Shown: in pieces, positions 2-10,154 of the stretch | Layout: the number at the start of each line of letters is the position of its first letter | Position numbering within the stretch: the first letter of the stretch is position 1 | DNA from: Klenkia sp. PcliD-1-E | GTDB lineage: Bacteria; Actinomycetota; Actinomycetes; Mycobacteriales; Geodermatophilaceae | DNA: 34,268 nt | Direction: 5' to 3' | Assembly: GCF_024124375.1 (NCBI RefSeq) | Contig: NZ_JAMXRZ010000038.1 | Span: 1-34,268 of the forward strand | The notes under the pieces: generated by a model | Databases searched by the model: none | The model's input: the letters and a program-made list of their open reading frames with translations, nothing else | Told to the model about the DNA's origin: nothing | Translations under genes and position numbers: made by a program

Positions 2-3000
2 GCGGCCCAGCCGGCCGCCGAGGCCGCCGCCGCCGCGGTCGCCGCCGACCTGCCCGCCGCCGTGCCGGACGCCGAGGTGCTCTACACGACGTCGACCGTG
101 CTGTCCGGCGTCGCGGTGCGCGCCGACGCCGCCGACTACGACGCGCTGGCTGCGCTGCCCGACGTCGTCGCGGTGCACCCGATCTACCCGAAGAAGGTGT
201 CCAACACCGGCGCCGCGTCCGTCGTGCAGGCCGTGCAGGCCTGGGAGGACCTCGGCAACACCGGCGAGGGCGTGTCCATCGGCATCATCGACACCGGCAT
301 CGACTACACGCACACCGACTTCGGCGGCAGCGGCAGCGTCGACCAGTTCGACACCCTGCAGCAGTACGAGGCCCAGCCCGCCCCGGCCGGCGTCTTCCCC
401 AACGCCAAGGTGGTCGGCGGCTACGACTTCGTCGGTGACAGCTACGACGCCGACCCGTCGAGCCCGGACTACCAGCCCGTGGCCATGGCCGACCCGAACC
501 CGCTGGACTGCAACGGGCACGGCACCCACGTCGCCGGCACCGCAGCCGGGTACGGGGTCGAGGCCGACGGCAGCACCTACACCGGTGGCTACGCCGGCGG
601 CGTGCCCGGCGACCTGCGGATCGGCCCCGGCATGGCGCCCGGCGCCGAGCTGTACGCCCTGAAGGTCTTCGGCTGCGAGGGCTCCACCGACGTCACGATG
701 CAGGCCATCAACTGGGCCATGGACCCCAACGGCGACGGTGACCCGAGCGACCACCTCGACGTCATCAACCTGTCGCTGGGCTCGGACTACGGCCTGGCCG
801 ACGACGCGGACTCCATGGCCATCAACCAGGCGATGGAGATGGGCATGCTGGCCGTGCTGGCCGCCGGCAACGCCGGGGACAGCTACGACATCGGCGGCTC
901 ACCGGGCAACGCCGCCCGCGGCATCGGCGTCGCGGCGAGCAACGACGGCTACGGCGTCTTCGACGGCTGGCAGGTCACCTCGCCCGAGGGGCTGCTCGAC
1001 GGCACCCGACCGGGCCTGCGCTCGGTGGCCTACAGCGACACCGACGCGGACGGCGCGACCAAGCCCGACGTCACCGGTGACCTGGTCTACGCCCCGGCCG
1101 GCAACACCGACGCCTGCGCCGCGCTCCCGGCCGGCTACGCGACCGGGAAGATCCTGCTGATCGAGGCCAACGGCTTCGCCTGCGGCTCGGTCACGAAGGG
1201 CACCAACGCGGTCAACGCCGGCGCCGTCGGCTTCGTGATCATCGCCGACGACGACCTGCTGGAGACCGGCATCACCGGTGTCGCGCAGATCCCCGGCATC
1301 CTGGTCACCAACTCCGACGGCGGCGCCCTGCGCGGCGCGGTCACCGGTGGTCAGACCGTCACGGTCACCTTCGGGCCCAGCCTGAAGGACGCCGCGTCCT
1401 TCACCGACCCCGACCAGGTCGACCTGCTCGCCTCGTTCAGCTCCCGCGGCGTCCGCCAGGAGGACGGCGCCAAGCCCGACGTCACCGCACCGGGTGTCAC
1501 GGTCTACTCCGCCGGTGTCGGCCAGGGCTCGGGCGGCGCCAGCCTCTCGGGCACCTCGATGGCCACCCCGGTCACCGCCGGCGTCACCGCGCTCATCCGC
1601 GCGGCGCACCCGGAGTGGAGCACCGAGGAGGTCAAGGCGGACCTGATGAACACCGCCACCCACGACCTGTACACCGAGCCCGGCCGGACCGGTGACGTCT
1701 ACGGGCCCAACCGGGTGGGCTCCGGCCGCATCGACGCCGCATCGGCCCTGCGCAACGAGGTCCTGGCGTACGCCGAGGCCGGGTCCGGCGTGGTGACGGC
1801 GTCCTTCGGCGTCGTCGAGGTCGACCAGGAGCAGGTCAGCGCCACCAAGACCATCACGGTCGAGAACAAGGGCGGCCGCGCCGCGGTGTACCGCGTCTCC
1901 TACGACGCGCTGGTCGCCCAGCCCGGTGTCCGGTACGCCCTGTCGGCCCAGCGGCTGACCATCCCGCCGGGCCAGAGCCGCACGGTGACGATCACCATGA
2001 CCGCCACCCAGGACGACCTGCGCAAGGTCGCCGACCCGACCGTGGTCGTCGACGACGGCCGGCAGTTCCTCGGCGAGGCCAGCGGCCGCGTCGTGCTCAC
2101 CCCGACCAACAACCGGGGCGAGGTGCTGCGGGTGCCGGTGCACGCCAACCCGAAGCCGGCCTCCACGCTGACGGCGACCCCGTCGGCGGACGGCTCGACC
2201 ATCGGGCTGTCGGGCGAGGCCGTGGCCAACGGCGACCTGTTCGACCCGACCAGCTACACCTCGTTGGTCAGTGCCTTCGAGCAGCTGGGCACCAGCCCGC
2301 AACTGCCGAAGTGCGACGCCGAGACCGGTCTGGTCAGCACCTGCTACAAGACCGAGCTCGAACGATCGGTCGACCTGGCCGCGGTCGGGGTGGCCTCGGA
2401 CGTCGCCGACAGCCCGGACGACCCCGGTGTGTACTTCGCGGTCTCCGCGCACGGGAAGTACACGTCGGCGGAGACGGCCGTGAACTACGGCGTCTTCATG
2501 GACACGACCGGGGACGGGGTCTGGGACTACCAGGTCACCACCACCCGGATCGCCGACTACGACATCCCGCTGGTCGTCATCACCGACCGGGACTACCAGC
2601 TGGTCGGTGCCGGTGGCCAGCCCTACGTCGGTGCCATGAACGTCTACGACGGCCTGGTCGACACCAACGCCTACGACTCGGACGTGCAGATCCTGGGCAT
2701 CCCGCTGTCGCAGCTGCCGACCGCGCCCGGGCGCATCTCCTTCGGCGTCCAGTCGGCCAGCTACAACGGCACGGTGGACGACGTCGGCACGCTGTCCACG
2801 CCGACCGGGCCCGAGCTCGCGCCGCAGGCGATGAGCTTCGACCCGACCGCCCCGGGGCTGTCCTTCAGCACCGAGGACGGGACGGCGCTGCTCGTGCCGG
2901 CGACCGACGGCACGCAGATCGCCGTCACCCAGGACGCCGAGTCCTACGCCGCGGACACCGCGGTCGGCGGTGACAAGGGCGCCATGGTCGTGCTGAGCCA

Positions 3001-3133
3001 GAACTCCAGCGCGGCCGGCCGCACCCAGTCGGTGCCGATCGCCCCCGCCGGGGGTGCCGACGCCACGGTCGTCACCGTCCCGCCGGCGGCGGAGGCACCC
3101 GCCACGGACCAGCCGGCGGACACCACCGGCTGA
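2..3133 (+). CDS. Secreted subtilisin-like serine protease (S8), 5' end missing
   Basis: The reading frame is open from base 2, so the true start and any signal peptide lie upstream; a GTG at 62 is only an internal codon. Counting from that GTG, the order is: end of an inhibitor I9-type propeptide (about 1-45), then a peptidase S8 domain with catalytic Asp77 (GIIDTGID), His153 (NGHGTHVAGT), oxyanion Asn270 (AAGNAG) and Ser499 (SGTSMATP). A protease-associated (PA) domain is inserted at about 340-440, and a fibronectin-III-like region follows at about 575-700. The remaining 300 residues are an unrecognised extracellular-type region ending in a Pro/Ala/Thr-rich tail. The catalytic triad is complete, so it should be an active exported protease. 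It sits where related genomes tend to carry serA beside leuB. It ends 17 bases before a perfect hairpin. Confidence 0.93.
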   Translation, partial: AAQPAAEAAAAAVAADLPAAVPDAEVLYTTSTVLSGVAVRADAADYDALAALPDVVAVHPIYPKKVSNTGAASVVQAVQAWEDLGNTGEGVSIGIIDTGIDYTHTDFGGSGSVDQFDTLQQYEAQPAPAGVFPNAKVVGGYDFVGDSYDADPSSPDYQPVAMADPNPLDCNGHGTHVAGTAAGYGVEADGSTYTGGYAGGVPGDLRIGPGMAPGAELYALKVFGCEGSTDVTMQAINWAMDPNGDGDPSDHLDVINLSLGSDYGLADDADSMAINQAMEMGMLAVLAAGNAGDSYDIGGSPGNAARGIGVAASNDGYGVFDGWQVTSPEGLLDGTRPGLRSVAYSDTDADGATKPDVTGDLVYAPAGNTDACAALPAGYATGKILLIEANGFACGSVTKGTNAVNAGAVGFVIIADDDLLETGITGVAQIPGILVTNSDGGALRGAVTGGQTVTVTFGPSLKDAASFTDPDQVDLLASFSSRGVRQEDGAKPDVTAPGVTVYSAGVGQGSGGASLSGTSMATPVTAGVTALIRAAHPEWSTEEVKADLMNTATHDLYTEPGRTGDVYGPNRVGSGRIDAASALRNEVLAYAEAGSGVVTASFGVVEVDQEQVSATKTITVENKGGRAAVYRVSYDALVAQPGVRYALSAQRLTIPPGQSRTVTITMTATQDDLRKVADPTVVVDDGRQFLGEASGRVVLTPTNNRGEVLRVPVHANPKPASTLTATPSADGSTIGLSGEAVANGDLFDPTSYTSLVSAFEQLGTSPQLPKCDAETGLVSTCYKTELERSVDLAAVGVASDVADSPDDPGVYFAVSAHGKYTSAETAVNYGVFMDTTGDGVWDYQVTTTRIADYDIPLVVITDRDYQLVGAGGQPYVGAMNVYDGLVDTNAYDSDVQILGIPLSQLPTAPGRISFGVQSASYNGTVDDVGTLSTPTGPELAPQAMSFDPTAPGLSFSTEDGTALLVPATDGTQIAVTQDAESYAADTAVGGDKGAMVVLSQNSSAAGRTQSVPIAPAGGADATVVTVPPAAEAPATDQPADTTG

Positions 3134-3150
3134 TCCACCGCACCACCCGA

Positions 3151-3203
3151 GCACGCACCGGCACCCCCCGCGACGCACTCCCGCGGGGGGTGCCGGTGCG
3201 TGC
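3151..3203 (+). terminator. Perfect 22-bp hairpin after the subtilase gene
   Basis: Bases 3151-3172 and 3182-3203 are exact reverse complements with a 9-base loop (ACGCACTCC). There is no T-run, which is usual for high-GC actinobacterial terminators. The right arm stops 13 bases before the presumed -10 box of leuB, so it would insulate leuB from subtilase transcription. Confidence 0.8.
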
Positions 3204-3215
3204 GGGCCCGGGCAC

Positions 3216-3221
3216 TAGCCT
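3216..3221 (+). promoter_or_regulatory. TAGCCT -10 box for leaderless leuB mRNA
   Basis: TAGCCT ends 8 bases before the leuB ATG at 3230 and no Shine-Dalgarno is present in between. The same arrangement recurs before several other genes here. No convincing -35 hexamer is visible. Confidence 0.5.
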
Positions 3222-3229
3222 CTGAGCCC

Positions 3230-4252
3230 ATGCGCCTGGCAGTGATCCCTGGAGACGGCATCGGCCCCGAGGTGGTGGCCGAGGGCCTCAAGGTCCTGGG
3301 CGAGGTCGCCCCCGACGTCGAGACCACCCCCTACGACCTCGGCGCGGCCCGCTGGCGGCGCACCGGGGAGCTGCTGCCCGACAGCGTCCTGGACGAGCTG
3401 CGCGGTCACGACGCGATCCTGCTCGGCGCGGTCGGCGACCCCGGCGTGCCGGCCGGCATCCTCGAGCGGGGCCTGCTGCTCAAGCTGCGCTTCGAGCTCG
3501 ACCACCACGTCAACCTGCGGCCGGCCAAGCTCTACGACGGCGTGGACAGCCCGCTGGCCGACCCCGGCGAGATCGACATGCTGTGCGTCCGCGAGGGCAC
3601 CGAGGGGCCCTACACCGGCAACGGCGGCGTGCTCCGCCGGGACACCCCGCACGAGGTCGCCACCGAGGTCAGCGTCAACACCGCCTTCGGCGTGGAGCGG
3701 GTCGCCCGCTACGCCTTCGAGCGGGCCGTCGCCCGGCCCCGCAAGCACCTGACGCTGATCCACAAGACCAACGTGCTCACCCACGCCGGGTCGCTGTGGT
3801 CGCGCACCGTGGAGGAGGTCGCCGCGGAGTTCCCCGAGGTCACCGTCGCCTACCAGCACGTGGACGCGGCCTCGATGTTCTTCGTCACCGACCCGTCCCG
3901 CTACGACGTCATCGTCACCGACAACCTCTTCGGCGACATCGTCACCGACGTCGCCGCCGCGGTCACCGGCGGCATCGGCCTGGCCGCCAGCGGCAACATC
4001 GACGCCTCGGGCACCCACCCGTCGATGTTCGAGCCGGTGCACGGCTCGGCCCCCGACATCGCCGGCCAGGGCGTCGCCGACCCGACCGCCACCGTGCTGT
4101 CCGTCGGCCTGCTGCTGGACCACCTCGGCCGCACGGAGCAGGCCCGCAAGGTCAACGCCGCCGTCGCCTTCGACCTGTCCACCCGGGACCGGGCCCAGCC
4201 GCTGCGCACCGCCGAGGTCGGCGACCGCCTGGCCGCCCTCGCCGGCGGCTGA
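3230..4252 (+). CDS. leuB: 3-isopropylmalate dehydrogenase
   Basis: This 340-residue NAD-dependent beta-decarboxylating dehydrogenase oxidises 3-isopropylmalate to 2-oxoisocaproate in leucine synthesis; in the citramalate route it can also act on 3-methylmalate to give 2-oxobutyrate. The N-terminus has the family signature GDGIGPEV, the centre has HKTNVL with the conserved lysine, and the C-terminal half has [10 protein letters not shown] and [12 protein letters not shown], all typical of LeuB. The length is normal for actinobacterial LeuB (about 340-350). I chose ATG 3230 because the protein then begins [12 protein letters not shown]; an in-frame GTG at 3200 would start inside the upstream hairpin. 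It is followed by its own terminator and then by cimA, which has a separate promoter. Confidence 0.96.
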
Positions 4253-4255
4253 GGG

Positions 4256-4293
4256 CCCCGTCCCGGGACCTGCTCGACAGGTCCCGGGAGGGG
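4256..4293 (+). terminator. Hairpin terminator after leuB
   Basis: TCCCGGGACCTG (4261-4272) pairs perfectly with CAGGTCCCGGGA (4278-4289) around a CTCGA loop. CCCC at 4256-4259 can add four pairs with GGGG at 4290-4293 across a bulged G. It starts 4 bases after the leuB stop codon. No T-run follows. Confidence 0.75.
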
Positions 4294-4303
4294 GTGCCAT
4301 CAT
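4274..4303 (+). promoter_or_regulatory. Promoter of the cimA leader
   Basis: TCGACA at 4274-4279 (5 of 6 matches to TTGACA) and CATCAT at 4298-4303 (4 of 6 to TATAAT) are separated by 18 bases. The -10 box ends 8 bases before the leader-peptide ATG, so transcription would start at or next to that ATG. The -35 hexamer lies in the loop and right arm of the leuB terminator. Confidence 0.55.
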
Positions 4304-4311
4304 CTGCGGCG

Positions 4312-4344
4312 ATGCACACCACCGGCACGATCACCATCACCTAG
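4312..4344 (+). CDS. Leader peptide MHTTGTITIT (Thr/Ile attenuator)
   Basis: ATG at 4312 opens a 10-codon frame ending in TAG at 4342-4344: five Thr codons (ACC, ACC, ACG, ACC, ACC) and two Ile codons (both ATC) among ten residues. Thr and Ile are the two amino acids expected to control 2-oxobutyrate supply, as in the classical thr and ilv leader peptides of enterobacteria. The stop codon overlaps the first arm of a perfect hairpin, and an intrinsic terminator follows, then cimA. There is no Shine-Dalgarno, but a promoter-like -10 box 8 bases upstream would make the frame leaderless. It is far too short for normal gene finding. Reading it as a regulatory leader is inference, strongly supported by the flanking RNA structures. 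Confidence 0.82.
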   Translation: MHTTGTITIT

Positions 4345-4372
4345 CGCGCAGTCACCCCCCCGACTGCGCGCT
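4343..4372 (+). promoter_or_regulatory. Attenuator hairpin 1:2 upstream of cimA terminator
   Basis: AGCGCGCAGT (4343-4352) pairs perfectly with ACTGCGCGCT (4363-4372); the 10-base loop is CACCCCCCCG. The first arm overlaps the leader-peptide stop codon, so a ribosome stopped in the leader would open or mask it depending on which codon it sits on. The C-rich loop is complementary, with one mismatch, to the 3' arm of the adjacent terminator (4387-4393). This could give an alternative, antiterminating pairing. Confidence 0.75.
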
Positions 4373-4373
4373 C

Positions 4374-4400
4374 ACCTCCCGTACCCCGGGAGGTTTTTTT
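4374..4400 (+). terminator. Intrinsic terminator of the cimA attenuator
   Basis: ACCTCCCG (4374-4381) pairs perfectly with CGGGAGGT (4387-4394) around a TACCC loop, followed immediately by a run of seven T (4394-4400). This is the only hairpin with a real T-run noticed in the window and it lies upstream of the cimA start, not after a gene. That position makes sense only as a conditional terminator. Confidence 0.9.
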
Positions 4401-4425
4401 GTGCCCGGACACCCGAGGAGCCCCC

Positions 4426-6012
4426 ATGACCACCCCGACCGTCGAGGTCTTCGACACCACGCTGCGCGACGGAGCCCAGCGCGAGGGGATCACCTACTCG
4501 GTGGCCGACAAGCTCGCCGTCGCCCGGCTGCTGGACTCCGTCGGGGTCTCCTACATCGAGGGCGGCTGGCCCGGCGCGCTGCCCAAGGACACCGAGTTCT
4601 TCGCCCGCGCCCGCACCGAGCTGCAGCTGCGGCACGCCGTGCTGGTCGCCTTCGGCGCCACCCGCAAGGCCGGCGTCCGCGTCGAGGACGACGCGCAGGT
4701 CCACGCGCTGCTGGACTCGCAGGCCCCGGTCGTCTGCCTGGTCGCCAAGAGCGACCCCCGGCACGTGCGCGACGCGCTGCGCACCACTCCCGAGGAGAAC
4801 CGGGCGATGGTCGCCGACACCGTCGCCTTCCTGGTCGGCCACGGCCGGCGGGTGTTCGTCGACTGCGAGCACTTCTTCGACGGCTACGCCGCCGACCCCG
4901 ACCACGGCGTCGCCGTCCTGCAGGCGGCCTTCGACGCCGGCGCCGAGGTCGGCGTCCTGTGCGACACCAACGGCGGCATGCTGCCCTCGGGCATCACCCG
5001 GGTGGTCACCGACGTCCGGGCCCGGGTGCGCGGGCAGCTGGGCATCCACTGCCAGGACGACACCGGCTGCGCGGTCGCCAACTCCCTCGCCGCGGTCGAG
5101 GCCGGGGTCACCCAGGTGCAGGGGACGGCGAACGGCTACGGCGAGCGCGCCGGCAACGCCAACACCTTCACCCTCATCGGGAACCTGGTCACCAAGATGG
5201 GCCTGCGCGTCGTCCCCGCCGCGTGCCTGCCCGAGCTCACGAGGGTCAGCCACGCGATCGCCGAGCTGGCCAACCTCACCCCCGACGACCACCAGCCCTT
5301 CGTCGGCGCCTCGGCCTTCGCGCACAAGGCCGGCCTGCACGCCAGCGCCATCAAGGTCAGCCCGGAGCTGTACAACCACCTCGACCCCGCGACCGTCGGC
5401 AACGACATGCGCATCCTGGTCACCGAGATGGCCGGCCGGGCATCGGTGGAGCTCAAGGGCCGCGAGCTCGGCGTCGACCTCACCGGCCAGGACGCCGCGG
5501 TCGGCCGGGTCGTCACCGCCGTGAAGGAGCGCGAGGCGCGTGGCTGGTCCTACGAGGCCGCCGACGCCTCCTTCGAGCTGCTGCTGCGCAGCGAGCTCGC
5601 GGACGCGCCCGCGCCGCTGTTCGAGCTGGAGAGCTGGCGGACCACCGTCGAGCACCGGCCCGACGGCCAGGTGGTCAGCGAGGCCGTGGTGAAGGTGGGG
5701 CTGCCGGACGGCGACGGCGGCACCGAGCGGGTGGTCGCCGTCGGCGAGGGCAACGGCCCGGTCAACGCCCTGGACAACGCGCTGCGCGCCGCGCTCGTCA
5801 GCCGCTGGCCGCAGCTGGCCGAGGTCGCGCTCAGCGACTACAAGGTGCGCATCCTGGGCTGGACCGGTGGCACCAGCGCCACCACCCGGGTGCTGGTCGA
5901 CACCGCGGACAAGGCGGGGGAGTGGACCACGGTCGGCGTGCACGAGAACGTCGTCGAGGCCTCCTGGCTGGCCCTGGTGGATGCCCTCACCTACGCCGTC
6001 CTCAGCCGCTGA
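4426..6012 (+). CDS. cimA: (R)-citramalate synthase
   Basis: This 528-residue enzyme condenses acetyl-CoA with pyruvate to citramalate, the first step of the threonine-independent route to isoleucine; LeuC, LeuD and LeuB then carry it to 2-oxobutyrate. An HMGL-like TIM barrel occupies about residues 5-270, opening with DTTLRDGAQREG (Asp10, Arg14, Asp15) and including TANGYGERAGNAN. A LeuA-type allosteric dimerisation domain occupies about 400-528 (GNGPVNALDNALRAAL, YKVRILG). The metal-binding HxH reads His208-Cys-Gln210, so the second histidine is replaced. The start is ATG 4426 with GAGGAG at 4415-4420. It is preceded by the Thr/Ile attenuator and ends overlapping the convergent VOC gene by 11 bases. 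The related 2-isopropylmalate synthase is less likely given the DTTLRDGAQREGI signature and length. Confidence 0.93.
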   Translation: MTTPTVEVFDTTLRDGAQREGITYSVADKLAVARLLDSVGVSYIEGGWPGALPKDTEFFARARTELQLRHAVLVAFGATRKAGVRVEDDAQVHALLDSQAPVVCLVAKSDPRHVRDALRTTPEENRAMVADTVAFLVGHGRRVFVDCEHFFDGYAADPDHGVAVLQAAFDAGAEVGVLCDTNGGMLPSGITRVVTDVRARVRGQLGIHCQDDTGCAVANSLAAVEAGVTQVQGTANGYGERAGNANTFTLIGNLVTKMGLRVVPAACLPELTRVSHAIAELANLTPDDHQPFVGASAFAHKAGLHASAIKVSPELYNHLDPATVGNDMRILVTEMAGRASVELKGRELGVDLTGQDAAVGRVVTAVKEREARGWSYEAADASFELLLRSELADAPAPLFELESWRTTVEHRPDGQVVSEAVVKVGLPDGDGGTERVVAVGEGNGPVNALDNALRAALVSRWPQLAEVALSDYKVRILGWTGGTSATTRVLVDTADKAGEWTTVGVHENVVEASWLALVDALTYAVLSR

Positions 6013-6376
6013 CCCGGGAGCGCAGCAGGCAGAACTCGTTGCCCTCGGGGTCGGCGAGCACCACCCAGTCGACGTCCCCCTGGCCGACGTCCACCCGCAC
6101 GGCGCCGAGCTCCAGCAGCCGCTCGAGCTCGGCGTCCCGGTCGCGGTCGGTGGCGTTGACGTCCAGGTGCAGCCGGCGCCGTCCCGGCGTCGGGTCGGGC
6201 ACCCGGACGAGGTCCAGCACCGGCACCGGGCCCTTCGGCGGCTGGCCGGGCGGGCCCAGCGTGACCAGCTCGTCGTCGGCCTCCTGCACCTCCCAGCCGA
6301 GCACCTGCCCCCAGAACGCGGCCAGCGCGGCCGGGTCGGTGCAGTTGACGACGACCGACGTGATGCGGGCTGCCAT
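6002..6376 (-). CDS. VOC (glyoxalase/bleomycin-resistance fold) family protein
   Basis: A 124-residue single-domain protein. It has a glyoxalase-like start (MAARITSVVVNCTDPAALAAFWGQVLGW), a central LHLDV strand and the usual ending DPEGNEFCLLR, which fit the Glyoxalase_6-like branch of the VOC superfamily. Members use paired beta-alpha-beta modules to bind a metal or ligand; the substrate cannot be predicted. Its 3' end overlaps the cimA stop (convergent), and it diverges from the FAH gene across 54 bases. A CATGAT box (6385-6390, minus strand) ends 8 bases before its ATG, suggesting leaderless expression. Confidence 0.85.
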   Translation of the reverse strand: MAARITSVVVNCTDPAALAAFWGQVLGWEVQEADDELVTLGPPGQPPKGPVPVLDLVRVPDPTPGRRRLHLDVNATDRDRDAELERLLELGAVRVDVGQGDVDWVVLADPEGNEFCLLRSRVSG

Positions 6377-6418
6377 GCCGCCCGATCATGGCCCGCCGCG
6401 TGCCCGGCCGCACATCAG

Positions 6419-6424
6419 TAGCCT
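6419..6424 (+). promoter_or_regulatory. TAGCCT -10 box for the FAH-gltX-CPBP operon
   Basis: TAGCCT ends 6 bases before the GTG at 6431; no ribosome binding site lies between them. This is the same hexamer as before leuB and the DAK gene. Confidence 0.5.
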
Positions 6425-6430
6425 CGACCC

Positions 6431-7234
6431 GTGCGCATCGTCCGTTACGCCTCACCCACCGGCATGTCCTTCGGCGTCCTCGACGGCGACGGCCAGGTCG
6501 CCCAGATCGAGGGCCACCCCTTCGGCCAGATCAGCTTCACCGGCCAGCGGCACGCCGCCGCCGACGTCCGGCTGCTCTCGCCGATCCTGCCCAGCAAGGT
6601 GGTCTGCGTCGGCAAGAACTACGCCGACCACGTGAAGGAGATGAACACCGGCGACGCACCGAAGGAGCCGCTGGTCTTCCTCAAGCCCTCCACCTCGGTG
6701 ATCGGCCCCGGTGACGCGATCCGCATCCCGCCGGGCAGCACCAACGTGCACCACGAGGCCGAGCTGGCCGTCGTCATCGGCGCCCGGGGCGCCCGGCACG
6801 TCACCGAGGAGCAGGCGCAGGCCAGCATCTTCGGCTACACGATCGGCAACGACGTGACCGAGCGGGACATGCAGAAGAGGGACAACCAGTGGACCCGGGC
6901 CAAGGGCTTCGACTCCTTCTGCCCGATCGGGCCCTGGATCGAGACCGACCTGCCCGGCATCGGCAAGGACCCCGCCGACCTGCAGGTCACCTGCACCGTG
7001 GACGGCGAGCTCCGCCAGGACGGCCGCACCAGCCAGCTGCTGTTCGGCATCCCGACGCTGATCTCCTACATCTCCCAGGTCATGACGCTGCTCCCCGGCG
7101 ACGTCGTGCTCACCGGCACCCCGGCCGGCGTCGGCCCGCTGCGCGCCGGTGGCTCGGTCACCGTGGCGATCGAGGGCCTGGGCGAGCTCACCAACTCCGT
7201 CGCCGGCGCGGACACCACCTCCACCGCCCGATGA
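6431..7234 (+). CDS. Fumarylacetoacetate hydrolase (FAH) family protein
   Basis: A 267-residue protein with a short N-terminal DUF2437-like segment (about 1-55) followed by a FAH catalytic domain. The metal-binding acidic residues occur in [11 protein letters not shown] and [12 protein letters not shown], and the active-site region KNYADH is present. Annotation often calls such proteins 2-hydroxyhepta-2,4-diene-1,7-dioate isomerase; characterised relatives also include acylpyruvate hydrolases and oxaloacetate tautomerases or decarboxylases, so the substrate is open. The start is GTG 6431, leaderless. Its stop overlaps the gltX ATG (ATGA at 7231-7234), and the FAH-gltX order is conserved in mycobacteria. 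Confidence 0.88.
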
Positions 7235-9958: not shown

Positions 9959-10030
9959 TGGGGTATGGGGTAATTGGCAGCCCGACGGTTTCTGGTTCCG
10001 TTAGTCTAGGTTCGAGTCCTGGTACCCCAG
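9959..10030 (+). tRNA. tRNA-Gln (anticodon CTG)
   Basis: A 72-base cloverleaf: acceptor stem TGGGGTA/TACCCCA is perfect, discriminator G73, T-arm CTAGG-TTCGAGT-CCTGG, and anticodon loop TTCTGGT with CTG at 34-36. The anticodon stem has a T-T opposition at its last pair (31-39). CCA is not encoded. It reads CAG codons. Confidence 0.93.
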
Positions 10031-10075
10031 CGAGGAACGCTCCACCTCCTCTTGTAACATCTGCACCGCAGTTCT

Positions 10076-10148
10076 GGCCCCGTCGTCTAGCGGCCCAGGA
10101 CGCCGCCCTCTCACGGCGGTAGCGAGGGTTCGAATCCCTTCGGGGCTA
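10076..10148 (+). tRNA. tRNA-Glu (anticodon CTC)
   Basis: A 73-base cloverleaf: acceptor GGCCCCG/CGGGGCT (first pair G-U), anticodon stem CCGCC/GGCGG around CTCTCAC with CTC at 34-36, T-arm GAGGG-TTCGAAT-CCCTT, discriminator A. CCA is not encoded. It reads GAG codons and lies 45 bases after tRNA-Gln, presumably co-transcribed. Confidence 0.95.
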
Positions 10149-10154
10149 CACCAC

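Follow-up and report, generated by a model that had tools for sequence, protein, structure and literature searches.

The attenuators of the enterobacterial thr and ilv operons combine regulatory codons in a short leader with an intrinsic terminator, and rely on overlapping 1:2, 2:3 and 3:4 pairings. Attenuation as a principle is well known, as are leader attenuators before ilvB and leuS. For the ilvB1 attenuator of Mycobacterium tuberculosis, the available part of the study describes a ribosome that masks the antiterminator when it stands at the stop codon and frees it when it is held on the LVVI codons, calls the antiterminator and the terminator mutually exclusive, and reports that changing LVVI to AAAA abolishes induction (PMC13236596). 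This conflicts with an earlier result for Streptomyces coelicolor ilvB, where replacement of the leader codons was without effect, as cited in the accessible portion of Seliverstov 2005 (PMC1262725). For the Corynebacterium ilvB-II motif, the excerpted text proposes that the P1 loop pairs with the terminator (PMC10272879).

We found no description of a cimA attenuator in the open-licence literature on cimA or citramalate leaders and on actinobacterial attenuators, and the available sections of PMC4833913 do not mention citramalate; this agrees with the initial annotation of this DNA, to which no described cimA attenuator was known. Here we report an element upstream of cimA that is very probably an isoleucine-responsive transcription attenuator. 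What is new is the cimA branch itself, the isoleucine specificity, the spread of the element, the abutting layout shared with other attenuators and the absence of a base-paired antiterminator.

The cimA leader of Klenkia sp. PcliD-1-E

The window (the whole stretch of 34,268 nt that was analysed) comes from a 4.5 Mb genome whose closest named relatives are Klenkia, with cimA 95–96% identical. The whole arrangement occupies positions 4312–4425. The initial annotation had read there a 10-codon frame whose stop codon overlaps a 10-bp hairpin, followed by a terminator (8-bp stem, seven T), a Shine-Dalgarno sequence and cimA; all of these were confirmed in the sequence. The features, with the evidence for each, are as follows.

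3200..4252, + strand: leuB, 3-isopropylmalate dehydrogenase, with a putative start; upstream neighbour, outside the element (PRK03437)
4274..4303, + strand: putative promoter, -35-like TCGACA and extended -10 TGC-CATCAT (consensus scan, relatives)
4312..4344, + strand: leader ORF MHTTGTITIT* (sequence; relatives keep isoleucine at codons -2 to -4)
4344..4371, + strand: hairpin 1, proposed as the regulated, antiterminating structure (sequence, folding, covariation in relatives)
4374..4400, + strand: intrinsic terminator, 8-bp stem and U tract (sequence, terminator scan, folding)
4415..4420, + strand: Shine-Dalgarno sequence GAGGAG of cimA (sequence)
4426..6012, + strand: cimA, citramalate synthase, with HMGL-like, HCS_D2 and LeuA_dimer domains (TIGR00977, Pfam)

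The leader ORF runs from an ATG at 4312 to a TAG at 4342–4344 and has two isoleucine codons, both ATC (4330–4332 and 4336–4338), with one of its five threonine codons between them. G4344 closes the stop codon and also opens the 5' arm of hairpin 1, a perfect 10-bp stem of GCGCGCAGTC (4344–4353) and GACTGCGCGC (4362–4371) closed by the loop ACCCCCCC, with a possible eleventh pair A4343–U4372. Two nucleotides separate the 10-bp hairpin from the terminator, whose arms ACCTCCCG and CGGGAGGT lie at 4374–4381 and 4387–4394 and whose seven T are T4394–4400. The cimA frame, with its ATG at 4426, scores 593.4 bits against TIGR00977 (cut-off 450), and leuB scores 585.8 bits against PRK03437 (cut-off 393).

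Folding of the region 4250–4440 gave a z of -6.1, and both hairpins together (4344–4401) reach -35.4 kcal/mol with a z of -8.65, a value equalled in none of 200 shuffles. Scans of positions 3000–7000 returned a single terminator-like site, that of the cimA leader (0.4 expected), and a single promoter-like site, at 4274–4303 (0.0 expected). The strongest evidence that the element is more than chance is its conservation across the class. At the gathering score, Rfam matched two tRNAs only in the window and nothing at eight related loci; adjoining genes for tRNA-Gln(CTG) and tRNA-Glu(CTC) lie at 9959–10149. Directly 3' of leuB there is also a perfect 12-bp hairpin (4261–4289) with no T run, whose loop and 3' arm contain the -35-like box that serves the cimA leader; L007 shows an imperfect counterpart, which most other relatives inspected lack.

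The -35-like box (4274–4279) stands 18 nt upstream of the -10, and the extended -10, TGC CATCAT at 4295–4303, was absent from the initial annotation. As the leader ATG begins 8 nt after this box, the transcript would be leaderless or nearly so, and translation of the leader in this genome probably begins at the mRNA 5' end or close to it. A NANNNT hexamer 5–9 nt before the start is found in 129 of the 148 leaders in which the start lies within 50 nt of the hairpin, and 118 of these 129 boxes have TGN ahead of them. This suggests that leaderless transcription is general among these leaders. The ilvB and leuS leaders of Streptomyces lividans are likewise reported to be leaderless in the available part of PMC8079986.

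Distribution of the arrangement and its association with cimA

The initial annotation had proposed an alignment of relatives in search of a conserved short frame and terminator, and such an arrangement was found: among 80 cimA relatives taken from genome contigs, 69 passed an automatic test for it and L074 was added to the alignment by eye. Two further relatives (L028 and L030) had no upstream sequence present, and in eight (L031, L039, L041, L042, L043, L046, L048 and L073) the arrangement was absent. A covariance model built from 71 sequences, referred to here as R1, had matches in 240 of 394 genomes of the class (E 1e-3). A cimA match (E 1e-110) was found in 310 genomes; R1 and cimA occurred together in 235, cimA alone in 75 and the RNA alone in 5 (Fisher p 4e-33, uncorrected for kinship).

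Genes were assigned to R1 matches as the best tblastn match 60–700 nt behind the element start. Among 111 match rows, mostly the better-scoring among the matches listed, 108 precede cimA, two precede ilvB and one precedes neither, being followed by a small protein with a weak ACT-domain match. These rows represent 110 places (L096 and L204 are the same) and include the window (L087); weaker matches are under-represented in them. A chance scatter of R1 matches can be rejected on these numbers. The weakest R1 match in the window's own genome (L089, E 0.05), with no cimA or ilvB by tblastn and with no leader or T run seen by eye in the stretch inspected, which was not on the match strand, was set aside as chance.

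In the window's family, 55 of 57 genomes had an R1 match at E 0.01, seven of them one match only. Three of these seven were examined. G414 and G422 had no cimA match at E 1e-100 and had only a weaker R1 match, which in G414 belongs to an ilvB leader. In the third, G402, cimA starts ∼ 18 nt after the gene ahead of it, and the interval contains no leader. Inspection by eye of 20 cimA upstream regions, 18 of them from genomes without an R1 match and two from the weakly matching G056 and G100, revealed no Ile leader; in these regions cimA adjoins the preceding frame, has a promoter-like box before it or follows another G/C-rich leader.

At nine loci of family f20 (L205–L209, L217–L219 and L223) a different G/C-rich leader with shared stretches, such as GGCGGCGAACCCGTC and CGTCGCGCG, precedes cimA, and the Ile attenuator was not seen where this leader is present; Rfam gave no match for L205, L217 or L224. 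At L031, L039, L042, L048, L210–L212, L216 and L220–L222, several of them from small genomes, cimA overlaps or almost touches the preceding frame and no attenuator was seen.

Isoleucine as the conserved codon of the leader

For the analysis of codons we collected 180 elements, of which 176 could be parsed (173 before cimA, two before ilvB and one before an ACT-domain protein) and four could not. A leader was obtained from 172. Six leaders were dropped by eye as misparsed (L025, L096, L118, L172, L180 and L189) and two as belonging to ilvB (L088 and L177), leaving 164, or 158 distinct leaders; 157 of these stand before cimA, and L188, before the ACT-domain protein, was retained. Leader starts at -71 to -65 (13 of the 172) were in several cases probably set too far upstream by the script. 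The stop codon falls at -3 or -2 in 108 of the 172 leaders and at +7 to +16 in 58.

Counted back from the codon at the foot of the hairpin, isoleucine is encoded at codon -3 in 150 of 158 leaders, at codon -2 in 125 and at codon -4 in 93. The six codons before the foot include 377 Ile codons among 948 in frame and two in each of the other two frames. As both ATC (211) and ATT (183) are used and the Ile codons are nearly confined to a single frame, it is the amino acid, not the letters, that is kept. The initial annotation had named free drift of the leader codons among close relatives as an outcome that would speak against it; this was not seen, isoleucine being conserved.

Part of that annotation, a Thr/Ile leader-peptide attenuator of cimA, is supported as far as the attenuator and isoleucine sensing are concerned, and not as regards co-sensing of threonine. 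A dual sensor, in which a stall for lack of either charged tRNA would open the switch, has some appeal because threonine is the other route to 2-oxobutyrate: the window leader carries five Thr codons, one of them between its two Ile codons, threonine outnumbers every other residue at codon -1 (33 of 158) and ranks second in the leaders as a whole (0.107 against 0.229 for isoleucine), and leaders with a single isoleucine, such as CITT or LITH, exist. However, among the 474 residues at codons -2 to -4 of the 158 leaders there are 12 threonines against 368 isoleucines, and 54 of 158 leaders have no threonine after the start. Six loci that the collection assigns to the window's genus read TIIIT, TIIIA, TIVIT, TITIT, TIIT and TIIIT, against TITIT in the window; the ITI of the window is III, IVI or II in close relatives. 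We therefore reject threonine as a conserved co-sensor and regard a dual sensor as highly unlikely. The conserved sensor, judged from these alignments, is isoleucine and not threonine, and a leader of the thrL kind, with conserved codons for both, was not found.

The choice between the two isoleucine codons is itself skewed. Of 394 Ile codons in the leaders 183 are ATT, compared with 128 of 2008 in the readable downstream coding sequence; at the 109 loci where ATT accounts for less than 5% of the coding Ile codons, it is used in 120 of 265 cases in leaders and in one of 1441 in coding sequence. For Geodermatophilaceae (n = 21) the figures are 6 of 54 in leaders and 1 of 138 in coding sequence; the window leader has ATC twice. 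A single tRNA-Ile(GAU) would read both codons. Instead of a preference for a rare codon, selection for A/U-rich, unstructured RNA could be the cause of the ATT enrichment.

Hairpin 1, the terminator and the position of the ribosome

Covariance analysis of the two hairpins had been suggested at the outset, and according to the alignment of relatives hairpin 1 covaries. Six of its 10 pairs are changed on both sides among relatives, and the score of the whole structure was 0.341 against 0.167 in shuffles, none of 500 of which reached it, and against 0.154 or less when the structure was slid, with the caveat that related sequences can beat shuffles without any structure. Over both helices, 96 cells were changed on both sides against 31 in shuffles; the number of pairs so changed, eight, is less telling, as 25 of 500 shuffles reach it. 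Across the 176 parsed elements, hairpin 1 and the terminator lie 0 nt apart in 122, 1 nt in 40, 2 nt in 11, 3 nt in one and 4 nt in two, that is, 0–2 nt in 173.

To model the ribosome, the RNA was masked up to a point 10, 12 or 14 nt beyond the A-site codon's first base (n = 158). With the ribosome at the stop codon, the mean fraction of hairpin 1 pairs left was 0.03, 0.01 and 0.01 for the three masks; at the first Ile codon it was 1.00, 0.93 and 0.81, and at the last Ile codon 0.77, 0.53 and 0.30. The geometry that had been read from the window alone, a ribosome at the first Ile codon leaving hairpin 1 free and one at the stop codon covering it, thus holds on average over the 158 leaders modelled. 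Being unfolded at the stop and largely intact at the first Ile codon in this model, hairpin 1 is the structure that the ribosome would switch.

The terminator behaves differently: whether the ribosome stands at the first Ile codon or at the stop, a mean of 0.95–1.00 of the terminator pairs persists, so that no thermodynamic switching of the terminator by ribosome position was found in the model. When the 3' arm of the terminator was absent, pairing of its 5' arm with upstream RNA had a mean probability of 0.018 and exceeded 0.3 in none of the 158 leaders. A classical 2:3 antiterminator was therefore not seen in these base-pair probabilities, nor, in the same 158 leaders, was an antiterminator sharing bases with the terminator, as in attenuators of the trp, thr and ilv type. 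With no rival pairing and a terminator that keeps its pairs, thermodynamics alone gives no switch.

The initial annotation had offered a pseudoknot, in which base-pairing between the C-rich loop of hairpin 1 and the terminator's 3' arm would keep the terminator from forming, a pairing of the sort proposed, in the part of the paper at hand, for the Corynebacterium ilvB-II motif (PMC10272879). In Geodermatophilaceae (n = 21) the loops are 6–9 nt long and pair with that arm at a mean of -10.2 kcal/mol, with a median of 0.015 of random downstream k-mers doing as well. However, shuffled loops of this family already average -9.4 kcal/mol, which suggests that the complementarity is mostly a matter of C content, and the terminator itself averages -16.2 kcal/mol. 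In the 137 other leaders the loops are 3–16 nt long, 3–5 nt in 76 of them, and the median k-mer fraction is 0.30. Such a pseudoknot is thus unlikely to be the antiterminator. Its universal form is rejected for most lineages, and it does not appear, from these folding calculations, to be the general mechanism of the cimA elements; in Geodermatophilaceae alone, where the complementarity is good and barely above that of shuffles, it is plausible and may contribute.

The same scaffold before ilvB, leuS and other genes

The window's own genome has two further elements of this build. Before ilvB there is a leader MLRSALLVVID* followed by an 11-bp hairpin and an abutting terminator, the one further convincing R1 match in this genome; before leuS, a leader MSGGLLLPRPC* is followed by an 11-bp outer hairpin and a terminator with no gap (G000:C221, L299, ∼ 710–830), which gave no R1 match at E 1. 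Twenty further elements from Geodermatophilaceae, all before ilvB by tblastn, mostly have LVV, LVI or similar codons, and the gap is 0–2 nt in 21 of 21 ilvB elements of this family and in 20 of 20 others.

A further 40 R1 match regions, from 29 of 40 further genomes, were assigned by tblastn to ilvB (20), leuS (12), cimA (5) and neither (3); they amount to 39 new places, L298 being the earlier L188. The 12 leuS elements (L259–L261, L268, L269, L273, L276, L280, L282, L284, L286 and L287), all R1 matches of E 1e-6 to 3.4e-3 only, have leaders with Leu runs, a hairpin 1 and an abutting terminator; parsing was sensible for eight (gaps 0–1 nt), gave nothing for two and was wrong for two. Three of the leuS fragments have TIGR00396 as their best match and fall below its cut-off because they are partial. 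The three regions with neither gene are two before small ACT-like proteins and L281 (G309, E 2.4e-4), which was rejected as it shows no leader or terminator by eye. In family f2, probably Mycobacteriaceae, there was no R1 match in the genomes listed; four of its ilvB leaders (L254 and L256–L258) have the same layout with gaps of 0–2 nt, and three of the four carry Leu-Val-Val-Ile.

Many codons expected to be rare in G/C-rich genomes occur here too, the comparison with coding sequence covering ATT: the valine codon GTA was counted 39 times, in 36 of 41 ilvB elements, and CTT makes up 14 of 36 Leu codons in the 12 leuS leaders. In family f22 an Ile-run element of the cimA kind stands before a small protein at two loci. 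The protein behind L298 (G102) resembles an ACT domain weakly, short of the Pfam cut-off, the one behind L278 (G183) has no NCBIfam match, and the protein might be a relative of the acetolactate synthase small subunit.

With Ile runs before cimA, LLVVI before ilvB and LLL before leuS, the codons track the gene while the layout stays.

Proposed mechanism and alternatives

The leader frame, the two hairpins, the Ile codons, their geometry, the coupling to cimA and the counterparts before ilvB and leuS are all supported by sequence and its conservation. The direction of regulation, with starvation turning cimA on, would follow by analogy with the tested ilvB relative. On a leaderless transcript, translation would start from the first codon. 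With ample charged tRNA-Ile, the ribosome would proceed to the stop codon and cover the 5' arm of hairpin 1, whereupon the abutting terminator would form and transcription would end before cimA. Under a shortage of charged tRNA-Ile, the ribosome would wait at the Ile codons just upstream of hairpin 1, which could then fold beside it; termination would fail and cimA would be made. Because the two hairpins abut (0–2 nt) and do not compete for bases, we infer that hairpin 1 excludes the terminator sterically, which is the likeliest remaining reason: a 10-bp hairpin 0–2 nt upstream would leave the terminator stem no room to zip in the RNA exit channel.

Several observations count against an isoleucine attenuator: the 75 of 310 cimA genomes without an R1 match, together with the 20 upstream regions without an Ile leader and G402, whose cimA has none; the last Ile codon, at which only 0.30–0.77 of hairpin 1 pairs are kept in the model; the 25 of 500 shuffles that reach eight doubly changed pairs; and the lack of a base-paired competitor of the terminator in the 158 leaders. 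To these is added the ineffective codon replacement before S. coelicolor ilvB, as cited in the accessible text of PMC1262725. The last result would also suit a fixed partial terminator behind a constitutive uORF, in which the Ile run would merely keep the RNA before hairpin 1 A/U-rich and unstructured; Ile codons are indeed A/U-rich, and ATT is greatly enriched over coding sequence. Yet it is the frame and not the letters that is kept, and the ilvB and leuS leaders have Val/Leu or Leu codons at the same place, which makes such a fixed terminator distinctly improbable. The two hairpins fold together and, since they abut, could stack end to end, so that hairpin 1 might instead assist the terminator and starvation would lower cimA. 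A biosynthetic gene would not be expected to respond with this sign, and starvation induces the ilvB1 attenuator that has been tested, according to the available part of PMC13236596; we consider the reversed sign extremely improbable.

The isoleucine attenuator may be one instance of something broader. Tentatively, and with more doubt than confidence, we suggest a single exchangeable actinobacterial scaffold that carries an Ile run before cimA, Leu-Val-Ile codons before ilvB and a Leu run before leuS, that acts by steric antitermination beside the stalled ribosome, and in which AUU has been chosen as a rare codon to sharpen the response.

If the isoleucine attenuator is real, much of the class would control the first enzyme of the threonine-independent route to isoleucine by sensing isoleucine directly, alongside similarly built sensors for ilvB and leuS. 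The more than 150 natural variants would form a comparative set for how a stalled ribosome prevents termination without competition for bases, and the cimA attenuator could serve in the engineering of isoleucine-derived products.

Comparison with known systems

The cimA element shares leader regulatory codons and an intrinsic terminator with the enterobacterial thr and ilv attenuators, whereas the 2:3 antiterminator of the latter was not found in 158 cimA leaders. With a uORF of pathway codons near hairpin 1, an abutting terminator and a branched-chain gene downstream, the element appears to belong to the known actinobacterial ilvB-type uORF attenuators. The described members of this group (PMC1262725, PMC13236596 and IlvL of S. 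lividans, PMC8079986), as far as the available parts of these papers go, share a branched-chain uORF beside hairpins and a terminator, and the uORF of IlvL is reported there to be leaderless. The cimA leaders differ from them in having Ile runs instead of Leu-Val-Val-Ile and in preceding the gene of citramalate synthase. The Corynebacterium ilvB-II motif, from what is given in the available text (PMC10272879), shares the uORF, two stems and the U run with the cimA element, whereas outside Geodermatophilaceae the cimA elements do not conserve its proposed loop pairing. The leuS attenuators (PMC1262725; LeuL2 of S. lividans, PMC8079986; both in the portions available) have the same layout as the cimA element and differ from it in having Leu codons and in preceding the gene of leucyl-tRNA synthetase.
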